Of a DNA stretch of 51,822 nt, positions 1 to 51,822 are shown in pieces. The notes under the pieces are model-generated. The model ran no database searches. It was not told where the DNA came from and saw nothing but the letters and a program-made list of their open reading frames with translations. Made by a program: the position numbers and the translations under genes. Source of the stretch: Bathymodiolus japonicus methanotrophic gill symbiont (GTDB lineage: Bacteria > Pseudomonadota > Gammaproteobacteria > Methylococcales > Methylomonadaceae); assembly GCF_019721995.1 (NCBI RefSeq), contig NZ_BLYC01000026.1, forward strand, positions 1 to 51,822, in the 5' to 3' direction. Each line of letters begins with the position of its first letter. Within the stretch, counting starts at the first letter, position 1.

Positions 1-216
1 TGCTGCCTTATCTCCAGAGCCTCGCTATATTTTTTATCCGATGGATGAATCAATTCTGGCTCTTGTGTTTTTGAAATCTCTTCAAACACGCGCATTAAAT
101 TATAGCTCATTGCAGTCAGGCGCATTTGATTTTCAAGTGAGCGGGTATTGGAAGACCAAGCTTTAGTTTCCTTGAAATTACTTTTAGTGTTATTGAATGT
201 CTTTTCAATCGTCCAT

Positions 217-512
217 CGCTGAAAATCAGGGAAACGGAGCCTAAGCGAAGTGATGATTTTTAGTCCGCGATAGCCGTAGAGCCGTTATTTTGTCGGAGTC
301 TGAGCGTTAGCGAAGGTGGAGACAAAATAAAAGGCCATCCGACACGGCGTCAAGTCATTTGGAGCCTATGTTCCGACCCCTTGTTGGGTCGGGACGAGGT
401 GACGAGGACGAATCGGGGCCGCCGGAGGCATAAGTGGTCGCGTTAAGTTTTTGCTGCTTGCTTGGGCTGGGATGCCCAAAACAAGCTTTCGCAAAAATAG
501 CGACTCCCCGAC
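217..512 (-). repeat. Structured repeat D, copy 1 (about 296 bp)
   Basis: A GC-rich non-coding repeat inserted in the IS4-1 transposase. It matches 1969-2264 in the opposite orientation with about one mismatch noticed. Read in its forward sense it starts TCGGGGAGTCGC and ends GATTTTCAGCG. It contains perfect stems: a 10-bp stem TTATTTTGTC/GACAAAATAA, a 7-bp stem CCGACCC/GGGTCGG and TGGGC/GCCCA. Its last 50 bp resemble the end of repeat C2. The uninterrupted transposase at about 40490 gives the empty site (CAAGCGATGG); no clear target duplication is seen. Mobility is inferred from the clean empty site. Confidence 0.8.
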
Positions 513-1123
513 GTTTGAAATATAGCATGGCAATGGCTCCAGGGTTAATAGTCATTGGCAAGGTTGTCACAAACCGGTAAAGTTTTCCGGTTTCTGGATC
601 ACGGTAATCCACCACGTTAAATTTGATGCCCTTGTTTTCGTACACACTGTATGCTTCAACTCCTGTATTGATCTCATGCTGGGAGTCAAAAGGGATAGAC
701 TCAACCAGAGTCGCAATTGAATTTTCTTTTAGCATTGAAATCATGTAATTAGCATGTCGTTTCTGCCGATCCCACCAGACAAAGTCGGTGACGGCTTTAT
801 CGTAGACATAGAGATGTTTCTGAGAGCTGTTATTTCCCTTGTTTTGCTTTTCAATATGATCTCGTAACACAGGTATTTCTTGATGTCTCTGAGTTCCGTT
901 TGTCACCAGACAAAGAAATCTGAGCAACCCACTTCTGAGATTCAACGCGTAAATCCCCCCGGCCGCATAAACTTTCCCCTTGCTGTTTTTTTCAGTATGG
1001 AAGGCATGATCAATAAAATGTCCATCCGCTGCTTCTCTGGTGTATTCGTCAAGTTCCGGGAATGCTTTAAGATAATCAATGCCTTGCGATAGCAGTGTTT
1101 CAGCGTGAAGATGATAGCTCTGC

Positions 1124-1383
1124 CGCTGTCAGCCCCGGACGGGCTGATAGTCTCCAGAAGGCGCAGGGAAATTTGCCAATCCGAAGTGCGCGATAGCGCG
1201 CGAGGGAGGCTAAAATTTTATCCCGAATAGCCGTAGAGCCATTTGTGGTAGCCATGACTGAGCTGCTTTGTGCTCAGTCTGTGGCGGACGCAGGGCGGCT
1301 GGAGCATCTCCTATTCGCTGCGTAGGTGAACGAATTACGGCGACAGGAGTCCCGGAATTTCGTGAGGTAGCATGGCGCGCCTG
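1124..1383 (-). repeat. Structured repeat C1, copy 1 (260 bp)
   Basis: A GC-rich repeat with nearly identical copies at 1649-1908 (inverted) and 20374-20633. Forward sense starts CAGGCGCGCCATGC and ends GGGCTGACAGCG. It contains perfect stems GACTGAGC/GCTCAGTC, GCGCG/CGCGC and CAGCCC/GGGCTG. It interrupts the transposase between its N-terminal and middle pieces. Short open frames cross it, but the coding sense is not conserved between C1 and C2, so I treat it as non-coding. Confidence 0.8.
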
Positions 1384-1648
1384 CTTGTTCGTCTATGCGA
1401 CTTCAGTGATTTAAAATACGTTGAGTGGGGAAGCAGCTGGCCATAAATCTGTTCATTGGTTTGGAGGAAATGGCGACCACTATCGACTACACTGATACAG
1501 CGTAATAACCCAAGGCGAATAAAGTCGATATCCTTCAACTCTGGGCATGAACGAGCCCACAAAGGATGACGTTCTGCTAACAGGGCACGTTCCATACTTT
1601 CATTGCAGTGTTGGTGAATATGTTCAGAGAGTGGTAGGTCTTTAAGCA

Positions 1649-1908
1649 CAGGCGCGCCATGCTACCTCACGAAATTCCGGGACTCCTGTCGCCGTAATTC
1701 GTTCACCTACGCAGCGAATAGGAGATGCTCCAGCCGCCCTGCGTCCGCCACAGACTGAGCACAAAGCAGCTCAGTCATGGCTACCACAAATGGCTCTACG
1801 GCTATTCGGGATAAAATTTTGGCCTCCCTCGCGCGCTATCGCGCACTTCGGATTGGCAAATTTCCCTGCGCCTTCTGGAGACTATCAGCCCGTCCGGGGC
1901 TGACAGCG
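1649..1908 (+). repeat. Structured repeat C1, copy 2, inverted relative to copy 1
   Basis: Nearly identical to 1124-1383 but inverted. It sits at the very 5' end of the transposase N-terminal piece, whose present GTG start codon borrows one base from the repeat. The two C1 copies enclose only about 265 bp, which makes a long inverted repeat around the transposase N-terminus. Confidence 0.8.
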
Positions 1909-2437
1909 TGGGTGATATCCGTTTATGAGGTGATTAAAACGGAAATTTTTAGAAAAATTTTTTCGGTATCGGGGAGTCGCTATTTTTGCGAAAGCTTGTT
2001 TTGGGCATCCCAGCCCAAGCAAGCAGCAAAAACTTAACGCGACCACTTATGCCTCCGGCGGCCCCGATTCGTCCTCGTCACCTCGTCCCGACCCAACAAG
2101 GGGTCGGAACATAGGCTCCAAATGACTTGACGCCGTGTCGGATGGCCTTTTATTTTGTCTCCACCTTCGCTAACGCTCAGACTCCGACAAAATAACGGCC
2201 CTACGGCTATCGCGGACTAAAAATCATCACTTCGCTTAGGCTCCGTTTCCCTGATTTTCAGCGAATGCAAGCTTTATTTGAAATTATTTGTTGTTTTTTT
2301 ACGGTGCCTACAGAGTGTCTATTTGCTGTTATAAGTGATTAAAATCAAAAAGATGGAAATATTCGAGTGGTGCTACCTTCAGGTAGGTTATAGGCTGCTT
2401 TGTTTAGGTACTTCTTCTTTCAATGGGAACACTGATG
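1909..2437 (-). mobile_element. IS4-1 left end with terminal inverted repeat, split by repeat D
   Basis: The non-coding 5' end of IS4-1: 1909-1968 and 2265-2437, interrupted by repeat D at 1969-2264. Read on the minus strand the outer end is CATCAGTGTTCCC; the right end of the other IS4-1 copy at 42261 is the inverted match (GGGAACACTGATG). The same left end, without D, occurs at 14568-14782, which gives an empty site for D (TTTTTCGGCAAATGC). The last base of the element is 2437. Confidence 0.7.
1969..2264 (+). repeat. Structured repeat D, copy 2
   Basis: Inverted copy of 217-512, inserted in the non-coding left end of IS4-1. It starts TCGGGGAGTCGC and ends GATTTTCAGCG, as copy 1 does. With the two C1 copies it forms a nested symmetric order D'-C1'-C1-D across 217-2264. 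Confidence 0.8.
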
Positions 2438-5978: not shown

Positions 5979-6500
5979 ATGATTACCATGTCAAATACTC
6001 TACCCAATCGATATATCGTAGTTTGTATCGCGAAGCAGACGCTGGATATTATTGACAATAAAAAAGTTGTCAATAGCTACCGAGTCTCGACGGCTAAAAA
6101 CGGGGCGGGTGAGCGTATGGGTTCGGAATGCACACCTAGGGGCTGGCATAAAATCAGAGCCAGGATCGGTAAAGAGCAGCCCTTAAACAGTGTTTTTGTC
6201 GGGCGACGTGCGACAGGTGAAATTTATAGCGCTGAACTGAGTCAAAAATATCCCGACCGGGACTGGATCTTAACAAGAATATTGTGGCTAGGAGGTCTGG
6301 AAGCCGGGTTCAATCGCTATGGTCTGGTGGATAGTGCCTGGCGCTATATCTATATACACGGGTGCCCGGATCATTTAATGCAAGGCAAGCCCGAATCACA
6401 TGGCTGTATTAGAATACGTAATGCAGATGTGCTGGATCTATTCAATAAGGTAAAGGCAGGAGACCTGGTTCTTATTCATCTGAAGTTTCCCAATTATTGA
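5979..6500 (+). CDS. L,D-transpeptidase (YkuD domain) ending inside a MITE
   Basis: A 173-residue YkuD-domain protein. The catalytic motif is clear: H127-G128 and S140-H141-G142-C143-I-R, with C143 the nucleophile. Family members make 3-3 peptidoglycan crosslinks or attach lipoproteins to peptidoglycan. No signal peptide is visible, so export or a cytoplasmic role is unclear; short leaderless YkuD proteins exist in proteobacteria. Start is either ATG 5979 or ATG 5988; neither has a strong ribosome binding site. The last residues LKFPNY and the stop codon are encoded by the left end of MITE-A (6480 on), so the original C-terminus has been replaced. Confidence 0.85.
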   Translation: MITMSNTLPNRYIVVCIAKQTLDIIDNKKVVNSYRVSTAKNGAGERMGSECTPRGWHKIRARIGKEQPLNSVFVGRRATGEIYSAELSQKYPDRDWILTRILWLGGLEAGFNRYGLVDSAWRYIYIHGCPDHLMQGKPESHGCIRIRNADVLDLFNKVKAGDLVLIHLKFPNY

Positions 6501-12903: not shown

Positions 12904-13133
12904 CAGGCGCGCCATGCTACCTCACGAAATTCCGGGACTCCTGTCGCCATAATTCGTTCACCTACGCAGCGGATGGGAGATGCCCTGAACGCCCTGCGTC
13001 CGCAACGACTACGCACAAAAGCCGCTTCGTCATTACTACCTCACTGACTGGACGGCTATTCGGAATGCAATTCTTGCTCCTCTCGCGTGCTGCTAGCACA
13101 CGTCGAATCAGCGAATCGCCCTGTCGCCTATCA
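12904..13133 (+). repeat. Structured repeat C2, truncated copy
   Basis: Starts CAGGCGCGCCATGC and follows repeat C2 (39447-39726) to GCCCTGTCGCCTATCA, where it is cut by the end of an IS4-type element (CTCGATGTTC at 13134). The last 50 bp of the repeat are missing. Homologous to C1 at the first 65 bp and in several internal blocks. Confidence 0.8.
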
Positions 13134-20165: not shown

Positions 20166-20373
20166 TTTTCTCTTCCTTTATTATCTTACCCTAAGGTATT
20201 TTATAGACTATATTCCCGTCTATCATTTGATAACTACAGCCTGCGATCAAGGCGTTAACATAATTATAGTCTATGTTCCTCGTATCTTGGCGCAAAACAT
20301 AGCAACCCGTTGAATAAATCTTTTTTGCCAGCAACAAAATAACATATACTACAGCCATGGTACTTCACACGGT

Positions 20374-20633
20374 CGCTGTCAGCCCCGGACGGGCTGATAG
20401 TCTCCAGAAGGCGCAGGGAAATTTGCCAATCCGAAGTGCGCGATAGCGCGCGAGGTAGGCTGAAATTTTATCCCGAATAGCCGTAGAGCCATTTGTGGTA
20501 GCCATGACTGAGCTGCTTTGTGCTCAGTCTGTGGCGGACGCAGGGCGGCTGGAGCATCTCCTATTCGCTGCGTAGGTGAACGAATTACGGCGACAGGAGT
20601 CCCGGAATTTCGTGAGGTAGCATGGCGCGCCTG
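20374..20633 (-). repeat. Structured repeat C1, copy 3
   Basis: Same orientation and nearly same sequence as 1124-1383 (one or two differences seen). This copy is not inside a transposase: it lies in the intergenic stretch upstream of pcnB. The remaining bases, 20166-20373 and 20634-20908, hold no gene that I can see; a weak inverted repeat (GCTGAAA/TTTCAGC) spans about 20681-20720. Confidence 0.8.
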
Positions 20634-37851: not shown

Positions 37852-37969
37852 AGTCGTTTTTGGGTAGCCTAAAGTTAGTTCACTAGATTATCCCAAGAAA
37901 TTCGATCGTACGCGACAACTAACAAGCTATTGATTCCGCGTTTAAGTATTTCTCAGGATTATTAGGCAA

Positions 37970-39446: not shown

Positions 39447-39726
39447 CAGGCGCGCCATGCTACCTCACGAAATTCCGGGACTCCTGTCGCCATAATTCGT
39501 TCACCTACGCAGCGGATGGGAGATGCCCTGAACGCCCTGCGTCCGCAACGACTACGCACAAAAGCCGCTTCGTCATTACTACCTCACTGGCTGGACGGCT
39601 ATTCGGAATGCAATTCTTGCTCCTCTCGCGTGCTGCTAGCACACGTCGAATCAGCGAATTGCCCTGTCGCCTATCAGGGACTAAAAATCACCACTTCGCT
39701 AAGCTCCGTTTCCATGATTTCCAGCG
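39447..39726 (+). repeat. Structured repeat C2, full-length copy (280 bp)
   Basis: Starts CAGGCGCGCCATGC and ends GATTTCCAGCG. The first 65 bp match C1 with few differences; the last 50 bp match repeat D instead. The internal hairpin GTGCT-GCT-AGCAC occupies the place of GCGCG-CTAT-CGCGC in C1. It replaces the 5' ends of both neighbouring transposase genes. Confidence 0.85.
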
Positions 39727-42390: not shown

Positions 42391-42547
42391 TTTTGTTAAT
42401 GATGGCATCTTTCTTTCTTTTGGGTATTGAGTTATCATGGTTTTATTTTTCCGCCCCTTGTTTGAGTTATTATTTTTCAAATAAGGCGAAAACTATCCTG
42501 ACACGGGGGGTTAGTTCCAGCCCATCGAACTGATAGTTTTGTTCAAT

Positions 42548-42825
42548 CGCTGAAAATCATGGAAACGGAGCTTAGCGAAGTGGTGATTTTTAGTCCCTGA
42601 TAGGCGACAGGGCAATTCGCTGATTCGACGTGTGCTAGCAGCACGCGAGAGGAGCAAGAATTGCATTCCGAATAGCCGTCCAGCCAGTGAGGTAGTAATG
42701 ACGAAGCGGCTTTTGTGCGTAGTCGTTGCGGACGCAGGGCGTTCAGGGCATCTCCCATCCGCTGCGTAGGTGAACGAATTATGGCGACAGGAGTCCCAGA
42801 ATTTCGTGAGGTAGCATGGCGCACC
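42548..42825 (-). repeat. Structured repeat C2, full-length copy, reverse orientation
   Basis: Complement of 39447-39726 with few differences. It interrupts a hydrogenase maturation protease gene after about 27 codons. Confidence 0.85.
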
Positions 42826-42905
42826 TTATACTCAATCATTAAAGTCCCTATAGCATCGTCACCACGGCTTGGATTTCCATAGCCAAACACTAATACTTTT
42901 GCCAT
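42826..42905 (-). pseudogene. [NiFe]-hydrogenase maturation protease, N-terminal remnant
   Basis: The first about 27 codons (VLVFGYGNPSRGDDAIGTLMIE) match the N-terminus of HyaD/HoxW-type proteases, which clip the C-terminus of hydrogenase large subunits; GNPSRGDD carries the nickel-binding glutamate/aspartate region. Repeat C2 then interrupts the frame, and no continuation is seen on the far side. It suggests a lost or relocated hydrogenase locus. Confidence 0.65.
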
Positions 42906-43080: not shown

Positions 43081-43458
43081 GGGGACGACCTGGCTTCGAC
43101 GTGGGTAGCAAAACCTTAGGTGCATGTCGAGGACAGTACACCTCGTAAAATCTACTGAACTTAAAGTATTCGCAAATGACGAAAACTACTCAATGGCTTT
43201 AGCTGCTTAAACCCAGCACCATTCTCTTGGCTACATGTGCTTATGCGTGTAGAGTCTTTCGGGGCATCCAGGAGTCACTTTACATAAGATCGCGTTAAGA
43301 CCTTTGTTCGGAGTTCTGACTCGCTAAACCTAATCGAAATCGCTAAAAGTATCTTGGTTCGACGGGTAGCTTTTAGTTAAATCAAAGTGCGGAATAAACA
43401 TGTAGATCCAAAGGCGGAGTGCTCGCGGACGGGGGTTCAATTCCCCCCGTCTCCACCA
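43081..43458 (+). ncRNA. ssrA: Transfer-messenger RNA (tmRNA)
   Basis: 378 bases. The 5' end GGGGACGACCTGGCTTCGACG and 3' end GGTTCAATTCCCCCCGTCTCC-ACCA form the tRNA-like part. The tag frame at 43172-43210 reads ANDENYSMALAA then TAA. It rescues stalled ribosomes and tags proteins for proteolysis. An integrase gene follows, so its 3' end is the likely attachment site of the downstream island. Confidence 0.97.
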
Positions 43459-49468: not shown

Positions 49469-50602
49469 CCGCTTCATTCTGCTGTTCATTAGCTAAAATA
49501 CTTTCTCTATATACATTCATTGGTTTTTTATAGTCCAGGGTTTCATGAAACCGTTGATGATTATAAAACTCAATATAGTCATCAACATCTTCTATTAACG
49601 CTCTAATTGAACCATATTCATTTAAATAAATACGCTCACATTTTGCACTTCGCCAAAACCGTTCAATACAAATATTATCCGTTGCTCGTCCTTTTCCATC
49701 CATAGAAATAGTAATGCCTTTGTTTTTTAGTCGTTGGGTATGAATTTCACTGGTGTATTGACTGCCTTGATCCGTATTAAAAATTTCAGGTGTTCCGTAG
49801 AGAGAAAGCGCTTCATCTAATACATCCATAACTAAAAAAGAATCCATTGTGTTTGATATTTTATGGGCGAGCACTGCTTTTGAGTGCCAATCAATAATCG
49901 CCGCTAAATAAACCATCCCTTCTTTGGTTTTAATATAGGTTATATCTGTACTCCAAACTTGGTTAGCGTGTGATATATCAAGATCTCTAAGCTTATAAGT
50001 ATATTTTTTATGTTCTTTTATGGGGATCGTTGTATTGACTTGTTTTACCGCTAATACGGCTTTCAAGCCCATCTGCTGCCGATAACTCGCCACCGTGTTT
50101 AAACTGACTTTAAAACCACCTTCAAGCAACTGCTGGTGTACTTTAGCCGCACCATAAATAGGGATGTCTTTAAAAATGTGATTAATCTGAGTTTTGATCT
50201 CTTCTTTCTTTTTATTCTCTCTTTTTTTGTAATAGAGATTGCTTCTATTTAATCCTAATAATGCACACTGCTGTGTTAGAGGTAGAGTGTTAAGCTTGGG
50301 CTCAATCAACTGTTTTCTATCAGATGAGTCCAAGCTTTTTAGCTTTTTTTCGAGCCACTCCTTTTCAACCGTCATTTTTCCTACGATTTTTGTGAGCATC
50401 TCATTTTGTTCTTGAGCTGCTAATAGATCCTCTTTGTAATCTTTAACGGCTTTGGAGGGCTCCATTGCTATTTCTGCATTGTCTAAGAATATTTTTTTCC
50501 AGTTTTGTAGGTTCTTAGGTGTGATGTTATTTGCACTGGCAATTTCTTGCAGTGTTTTTTCATCTTTAAAACTTCTAATACCAACTTGCTTTTAAATCAG
50601 CA
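49469..50602 (-). mobile_element. IS3-family element, inverted copy with damaged orfA
   Basis: Nearly identical to the plus-strand IS3 at 50656-51822 but inverted. Its orfA lacks the first about 14 codons and has two single-base deletions relative to the other copy; the orfB part is open from ATG 50465. It has the integrase-core aspartates (WSTDITYI, FNTDQGSQYTS) and glutamate (CIERFWRSAK). Its 3' end is fused to the Tn5-like transposase half. Confidence 0.8.
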
Positions 50603-50655: not shown

Positions 50656-51822
50656 ATGAGCAGAAAAAGAACGGTCTACAGTGCTGAATTTAAAAGCAAG
50701 TTGGTATTAGAAGTTTTAAAGAATGAAAAAACACTGCAAGAAATTGCCAGTGCAAATAACATCACACCTAAGAACCTACAAAACTGGAAAAAAATATTCT
50801 TAGACAATGCAGAAATAGCAATGGAGCCCTCCAAAGCCGTTAAAGATTACAAAGAGGATCTATTAGCAGCTCAAGAACAAAATGAGATGCTCACAAAAAT
50901 CGTAGGAAAAATGACGGTTGAAAAGGAGTGGCTCGAAAAAAAGCTAAAAAGCTTGGACTCATCTGATAGAAAACAGTTGATTGAGCCCAAGCTTAACACT
51001 CTACCTCTAACACAGCAGTGTGCATTATTAGGATTAAATAGAAGCAATCTCTATTACAAAAAAAGAGAGAATAAAAAGAAAGAAGAGATCAAAACTCAGA
51101 TTAATCACATTTTTAAAGACATCCCTATTTATGGTGCGGCTAAAGTACACCAGCAGTTGCTTGAAGGTGGTTTTAAAGTCAGTTTAAACACGGTGGCGAG
51201 TTATCGGCAGCAGATGGGCTTGAAAGCCGTATTAGCGGTAAAACAAGTCAATACAACGATCCCCATAAAAGAACATAAAAAATATACTTATAAGCTTAGA
51301 GATCTTGATATATCACACGCTAACCAAGTTTGGAGTACAGATATAACCTATATTAAAACCAAAGAAGGGATGGTTTATTTAGCGGCGATTATTGATTGGC
51401 ACTCAAAAGCAGTGCTCGCCCATAAAATATCAAACACAATGGATTCTTTTTTAGTTATGGATGTATTAGATGAAGCGCTTTCTCTCTACGGAACACCTGA
51501 AATTTTTAATACGGATCAAGGCAGTCAATACACCAGTGAAATTCATACCCAACGACTAAAAAACAAAGGCATTACTATTTCTATGGATGGAAAAGGACGA
51601 GCAACGGATAATATTTGTATTGAACGGTTTTGGCGAAGTGCAAAATGTGAGCGTATTTATTTAAATGAATATGGTTCAATTAGAGCGTTAATAGAAGATG
51701 TTGATGACTATATTGAGTTTTATAATCATCAACGGTTTCATGAAACCCTGGACTATAAAAAACCAATGAATGTATATAGAGAAAGTATTTTAGCTAATGA
51801 ACAGCAGAATGAAGCGGCTTAG
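50656..51822 (+). CDS. IS3-family transposase, OrfA and OrfB in one frame
   Basis: A 388-residue protein in a single frame: helix-turn-helix (MSRKRTVYSAEFKSKLVLEV, EIASANNITPKNLQNWKK, residues 1-48), a coiled-coil leucine-rich stretch (about 68-100), the HTH_21 region (IPIYGAAKVHQQLLEGG) and an rve integrase core with WSTDITYI, FNTDQGSQYTS and CIERFWRSAK (D, D, E). Most IS3 elements need a -1 frameshift to join OrfA and OrfB; here no shift is needed. Ribosome binding site TTGGAG. The window ends at the stop codon, so the right end of the IS is not seen. Confidence 0.9.
   Translation: MSRKRTVYSAEFKSKLVLEVLKNEKTLQEIASANNITPKNLQNWKKIFLDNAEIAMEPSKAVKDYKEDLLAAQEQNEMLTKIVGKMTVEKEWLEKKLKSLDSSDRKQLIEPKLNTLPLTQQCALLGLNRSNLYYKKRENKKKEEIKTQINHIFKDIPIYGAAKVHQQLLEGGFKVSLNTVASYRQQMGLKAVLAVKQVNTTIPIKEHKKYTYKLRDLDISHANQVWSTDITYIKTKEGMVYLAAIIDWHSKAVLAHKISNTMDSFLVMDVLDEALSLYGTPEIFNTDQGSQYTSEIHTQRLKNKGITISMDGKGRATDNICIERFWRSAKCERIYLNEYGSIRALIEDVDDYIEFYNHQRFHETLDYKKPMNVYRESILANEQQNEAA

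Follow-up and report, generated by a model that had tools for sequence, protein, structure and literature searches.

The repeats described here, eight copies of which lie in the window (the whole 51,822-nucleotide stretch of the Bathymodiolus japonicus methanotrophic gill symbiont that we analysed), are mobile units with exact ends. Their three types, of 295 bp (type I), 260 bp (type II) and 280 bp (type III), form one mobile, apparently gene-free superfamily of folded elements. On balance, they are probably non-autonomous transposons whose mobile form is folded single-stranded DNA and whose enzyme is provided in trans. The best reading is that they work like the IS200/IS605-derived PATEs, the palindrome-associated transposable elements of Haloquadratum that are related to IS605-type transposons (PMC3119063).

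Element types and boundaries

All eight copies listed in the original prediction are present and are 98–100% alike within each type (Table 1). Positions 216–511 and 1969–2264 are 100% identical, 39448–39726 and 42548–42826 are 99% identical, and 1113–1383 and 1649–1919 are 98% identical; the shortened type III copy at 12904 is 99% identical to the copy at 39447 over 230 bases. The boundaries of the types were read off the window sequence, with ends defined by the comparison of filled and empty sites, and we call ‘top’ the strand that reads 5′-CGCTG ... CNNN-3′. Types I, II and III correspond to the repeats previously named D, C1 and C2, whose proposed relatedness is borne out by their common modules: the CAGGCGCGCC end in types II and III, the terminal hairpin in types III and I, and a central block, ATAGCCGT (ACGGCTAT when reversed), in all three. 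They had also been described as mosaics of exchangeable modules. Common modules do exist and may have been exchanged, but the mosaic build can also reflect divergence on one common fold.

Table 1. Elements and associated features in the window.
Feature	Position	Strand	Setting or basis
Target tetranucleotide CCAT, C at −4	213..216	+	Window sequence and −4 C rule
Type I (formerly D), top strand on +	217..511	+	Within IS sequence; empty site on contig C5, gap 0
Terminal hairpin P1 (CGCTGAAAATC..GATTTTTAGT)	217..264	+	Helix 1 of the type I alignment
Type II (formerly C1), target flank CTGC, C at 1120	1124..1383	+	Sequence, self-comparison
Type II, then TGGG (fourth base G)	1649..1908	−	Sequence, self-comparison
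Type I, then AATG (fourth base G)	1969..2263	−	Empty site on contig C12, gap 0
Type III (formerly C2), 230 of 280 bp	12904..13133	−	Terminal hairpin absent where IS sequence starts
Type II, target flank CGGT, C at 20370	20374..20633	+	Sequence, self-comparison
Type III, full length, then GAAG (fourth base G)	39447..39726	−	Sequence, self-comparison
Type III, full length, target flank CAAT, C at 42544	42548..42827	+	Sequence, self-comparison

The window also contains a second repeat family of ~206 bp (at 6478, 23917, 24101, 27914, 32730 and 42185, and inverted at 37968), which is apparently unrelated to the folded elements, and a tmRNA gene at 43081–43458 (RF00023, 205.5 bits). At the contig end, a 1,103-bp perfect inverted repeat (49469–50571 and 50715–51817, with a 143-bp spacer) could result from a fold-back in the assembly or from one element present as two opposed copies.

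Copy number in the symbiont genome

The 20-base end common to types II and III has 781 matches with up to two mismatches in the 4.97-Mb genome, and the same end read backwards, as a control, has 0. BLAST identified 278 copies in 846,722 bases, a sample composed of the window plus segments of contigs C1, C4, C5 and C12 that is not random, since C5 and C12 were picked because the copies listed there lay mostly on the + strand. A large majority of these copies (243 of 278) align with the query over more than 200 bases. The elements mask 4–10% of each stretch and ~8% of the sampled bases overall (weighted mean), and extrapolation from this 847-kb sample gives an estimate of ~1,600 copies for the whole genome. 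Among 131 left ends, 117 have a right end 100–299 bp away in a pairing search limited to 60–330 bp.

Mini-copies of ~50 bp, composed of the terminal hairpin alone, were observed on contig C1 of the window's genome (G000), with right ends at 71325 (+) and 96507 (reverse-strand coordinate). They have CGCTG at both ends and a C at −4 on both sides.

Insertion sites

Both ends could be placed for 219 of the 243 copies, the remaining 24 being without a clear end or enough flank. An empty counterpart is present for 96 copies in the sample, which allowed the comparison of filled and empty sites advised in the original prediction: the join is exact, without target duplication or base loss, in 94 cases and off by one in the other two. 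IS200/IS605 elements also insert without target duplication.

These exact empty sites bear on two other explanations. Fixed regulatory modules spread by recombination, not transposition, would fit the conservation of structure reported below. They are contradicted by the 94 exact sites, and also by nested insertions and the hundreds of copies, leaving this explanation with a negligible likelihood. Deletion derivatives of ordinary IS with inverted repeats (MITEs) would be expected to occur in many copies and to be enriched in multi-copy DNA, as is the case here. However, inspection shows that neither end is an inverted repeat of the other, the empty-site comparisons reveal no target duplication and no parent element was seen, and we therefore hold such an origin to be highly improbable.

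The fourth base past the CAGCG end is a G in 216 of 219 copies, which corresponds to a C at −4 on the top strand. In the profile of 215 distinct sites, this C is present in 99%, C is rare at −5 (5%) and G is rare at −1 (3%), with no base preference in the far flank. Thus, where an IS200/IS605-like element would be expected to have a fixed target of 4–5 bases beside its left end, C at −4 alone is fixed here. The element's own 3′ tetranucleotide starts with C in 218 of 219 copies; a C at both places is expected if one enzyme cuts both.

The same rule is found elsewhere. A G at +4 is present in 81 of 83 right-end pattern matches (loci L053–L132, with some copies counted twice and 24 matches, including a chance match, from genome G210), in 55 of 55 when only distinct copies of other genomes are counted (repeats, G210 and G000 left out) and in 22 of 23 copies of G210, which belongs to another genus (counted by eye). 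C at −4 was likewise found in 59 of 62 covariance-model hits uncut by a contig end and at 16 of the 18 loci from the class search (one of the 18 from the same order).

Multi-copy DNA lies on both sides of 58% of the 219 copies, compared with 27% of 1,500 random positions in the 847-kb sample, a contrast somewhat inflated by the 35 copies of the 219 that have a neighbouring element at most 60 bp away. This supports the suspected enrichment in multi-copy DNA. The preference for transposase genes that had been proposed is probably better read as near-random insertion followed by survival in dispensable DNA, since a single C is the sole strong target requirement.

In 13 type I copies with identical interiors, the last two top-strand bases differ at constant length (TC 4, TT 4, GC 3 and AC 1 on the bottom strand; one copy abuts another element), and in types II and III the terminal dinucleotide hardly varies. 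Neither a DNA nor an RNA mechanism predicts the type I variation well.

A fold conserved on the top strand

Two alignments, one of 14 type I-like sequences and one of 13 type II/III-like sequences (A2), have 76 consensus pairs each. They contain 23 and 24 doubly changed pairs, respectively, with 95.2% and 96.2% of paired cells, values reached by 0 of 500 shuffles, with structures predicted on the same alignments as tested, which favours them. The signal collapses when the partner is slid by one to three columns, and one of the ten measures is unexceptional (further pair types in A2, 108 of 500 shuffles). Selection on structure, originally suspected from the exchange of GCGCG-CTAT-CGCGC for GTGCT-GCT-AGCAC at one hairpin, is thereby supported; that hairpin is helix 9 of A2, in which two of six pairs are doubly changed and 100% of cells pair. 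The hairpins near the ends correspond to helices 1, 10 and 11 of the type I alignment, and the ends, upon inspection, carry no terminal inverted repeats. In type II, the distal P1 hairpin is replaced and its foot is kept, GCUG pairing with UAGU (by inspection). Single-sequence DNA folds are unexceptional for type III (top z −0.5, bottom z −0.3) and were computed on the bottom strand only for types I (z −3.0) and II (z −2.7), so that the structural claim is based on the alignments.

Read on the top strand, wobble cells are G-T far more often than A-C (118:11 and 115:7 in the two alignments), indicating that the top strand is the one under selection. In 37 related sequences, GNA loops closed by two pairs occur 97 times on the top strand and 20 times on the bottom strand, and GNNA loops 91 and 31 times; mononucleotide shuffles average 50 and 50, with maxima of 68 and 64. 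GNRA loops are not enriched in these sequences (37, for a shuffled mean of 30 and maximum of 38). As the aligned sequences are related, these wobble and loop counts are not independent. GNA and GNNA loops are described as forming unusually stable DNA mini-hairpins (PMC4686876), and the loop types lean towards DNA as the folded form.

Orientation relative to GC skew

The orientation of the 243 copies follows GC skew: the ratio of − to + copies is 113:26 where the skew is positive and 25:79 where it is negative (odds ratio 13.7, Fisher p = 1.3e-19). By stretch, + and − copies number 22/91 in C1, 4/22 in C4, 45/18 in C5 and 30/3 in C12, and the eight copies of the window alone show no strand bias (4/4). 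For 174 of 219 copies, the top strand coincides with the G-rich strand. By convention, the G-rich strand is the lagging-strand template. Since orientation tracks the skew, the structured top strand probably lies on the lagging-strand template, with fork direction deduced from GC skew. The bias towards the G-rich strand is present where local ORFs run with the top strand (35 of 53) and where they run against it (54 of 63); the top strand is antisense to local frames in excess (72 of 116).

Search for a mobilizing enzyme or a parent element

In line with the earlier view that no described element has this build, the elements match no known RNA family: Rfam covariance models gave no match for the window elements or for 18 distant loci. 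Matches to tRNA, group II intron and abiF models at L252 and L253 are located outside the elements, which led us to reject a group II intron or other Rfam RNA. The linked recombinase or RNA-guided nuclease that had been envisaged was not identified in family searches, which covered Y1_Tnp and RVT_1. No transposase gene flanked by element ends was detected in the 847 kb read (17% of the genome) or at 50 Y1_Tnp loci, including 20 of the same genome.

The symbiont genome contains 22 Y1_Tnp matches, mostly fragments. Such matches were obtained in every family member searched (22 of 22, several weak and RAYT-like only) and in 15 of the 18 genomes in which the model had hits, most of which belong to other orders; Y1_Tnp was undetected in the other three, one of which, G638, has a divergent form. 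Several copy-rich genomes, among them G210, G197 and G027, have only a weak best match (E 1e-12 to 1e-6), which suggests that they lack an IS200-type TnpA. Y1_Tnp genes of other genomes were rejected as parents, 30 loci having element matches of only ~15–24 bases (L139 of G006 excepted). Y1 fragments near full elements in the symbiont genome and in G006 were rejected as well, the elements being read as insertions and the gene borders lacking element ends, as were TIRYT-like genes of G027 and G238, which have GGGGTCAG repeats instead of element ends. At L146 and L149, RAYT-like genes are framed by GGGGTCAG/CTGACCCC, in agreement with the published TIRYT repeat consensus (PMC6006769).

RAYT-like genes occur in many of these genomes. 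Together with the terminal hairpin and the hundreds of copies in the symbiont, this would suit REP/REPIN-type repeats moved by TnpA_REP (RAYT), which are high-copy hairpin DNA whose movement in trans is attributed to a Y1 enzyme (PMC8266576, PMC3116915). However, the consensus lacks the GTAG motif with paired REP hairpins, the inspected RAYT-like loci are not bordered by these ends, the element is a multi-helix unit of 260–310 bp (~280 nt), and cutting would follow CNNN instead of the C|T described for TnpA_REP (PMC8266576). We consider membership in this group quite unlikely.

Longer, gene-bearing copies were not seen in G210, in which 23 of 23 copies are short. A total of 28 left and 20 right ends of the 847-kb sample have no partner within 330 bp; the 12 possible long pairs (up to 6 kb) all enclose further element ends, and a clean long element is therefore not among them. 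Among 63 model hits, 36 have one of the 3′-end motifs 204–298 bases in and 27 have none of the motifs, so that the hits could include a gene-bearing copy.

The elements might also be retroposons, with the top strand transcribed and the folded RNA copied into DNA at the fork by a reverse transcriptase acting in trans. Alu, which uses LINE enzymes in trans, provides the model. A covarying fold over the whole length, G-T (G-U) pairs on one strand and type I terminal dinucleotides that vary beside identical interiors, as if the start of the cDNA were imprecise, would all be compatible with this scenario. RVT_1 matches, which it calls for, were found in 17 of 17 genomes checked; this ubiquity makes them uninformative, and those of the symbiont (best E 1.6e-19) and G210 (3.9e-22) are only weaker ones. 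On the other hand, joins are exact at both ends, C is at −4 at the target and at the element end, the loops are of DNA type with GNRA unenriched, and long matches prevail (243 of 278 above 200 bases) with few clean one-end truncations among the unpaired ends. Retroposition is thus an unlikely origin.

Distribution in other genomes and replicons

A type III query matched 85 of 311 genomes of the order (E up to 1e-5, the symbiont included), many of these matches being confined to the 60-base terminal module. The end pattern is present in 25 of 25 near-complete genomes picked from these positives, with 0 matches for the reversed control. A model of the first 142 positions detected 36 of 369 genomes drawn from the class (the symbiont included), spread over 29 of 272 genera, and 33 of these genomes lie outside the order; L259 and L260 look divergent and start differently from CGCTG. 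Among the matches listed, the exact end pattern occurs in Methylotuvimicrobium buryatense 5G, several Methylomonas, a Crenothrix MAG and several Bathymodiolus methanotrophic symbionts. Also among the matches listed, it was observed in contigs labelled as Bathymodiolus heckerae thiotrophic symbiont and Rhodospirillales (L220 and L223), either through transfer or through mis-binning.

Separate plasmid searches matched 4, 4 and 2 methanotroph records, AP023241 among them; further plasmid searches gave no matches, and one distant query had no match in phage records. In a viral-contig collection, we observed the end pattern in five stretches of three contigs (L231–L235), one of which, of 55.8 kb, has three matches. 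No description of these elements was found in the open-access literature searched.

Proposed mechanism and comparison with known elements

If the elements transpose as single-stranded DNA, the replication fork would expose the lagging-strand template, on which the top strand (5′-CGCTG hairpin ... CNNN-3′) would fold. An enzyme encoded at another place in the genome, in all likelihood an HUH tyrosine enzyme related to IS200/IS605 TnpA or TnpA_REP, would cut after CNNN at the 3′ end of the element and at CNNN^ of a new single-stranded target, and the cut ends would be joined with no base gained or lost. Mechanism, rather than demonstration, points to a Y1-type enzyme as the most likely mover.

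The elements resemble PATEs, as described for Haloquadratum, in their non-coding length, near-terminal palindromes, absence of terminal inverted repeats and of target duplication, and occurrence within other mobile elements (PMC3119063). They differ from them in the covarying fold over the whole length, a target that needs one C, a far higher copy number (278 in 847 kb), gammaproteobacterial hosts and the absence of an IS605-type relative with the same ends in the 847 kb read or at the 50 Y1 loci. With IS200/IS605 elements such as IS608 and ISDra2, which are described as using the lagging-strand template and as having terminal hairpins and a tetranucleotide beside the left end, they share the probable template strand, the hairpins and related motifs at target and element end (PMC6006769). 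In contrast to these, no tnpA is present in the copies read and the target is reduced to one strong base; a single base separates the cut from the hairpin foot at the CGCTG end, which leaves no four-base guide there. Orphan HEARO/IscB-type RNA elements are structured mobile units without an ORF; the elements described here are likewise structured, mobile and apparently ORF-free, but differ in having no Rfam match.

The whole-length structure exceeds what IS200/IS605 ends need, and this counts against the single-strand DNA transposition that we favour. The elements are PATE-like, yet such a fold is outside the PATE definition, and there is a real chance of something more distinct. Tentatively, and as a less probable possibility, they could represent a separate class of mobile element present in many gammaproteobacterial lineages, in which the whole ~280-nt strand would be a conserved folded nucleic acid able to recruit the machinery of the replication fork or an unrecognised enzyme, without a protein-coding partner element.

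Biological significance

The 4.97-Mb genome of the B. japonicus methanotrophic symbiont is described as consisting of more than 20% insertion sequences, with most transposase genes disrupted (PMC8788690). The elements would account for part of this unusual state. As a seemingly gene-free element occupying 8% of the bases sampled, it provides a bacterial parallel to the bursts known from non-autonomous transposons. One carrier, Methylotuvimicrobium buryatense, can be grown and is genetically workable, which makes the mechanism testable, and the fold could serve as a natural model of a selected single-stranded DNA structure.
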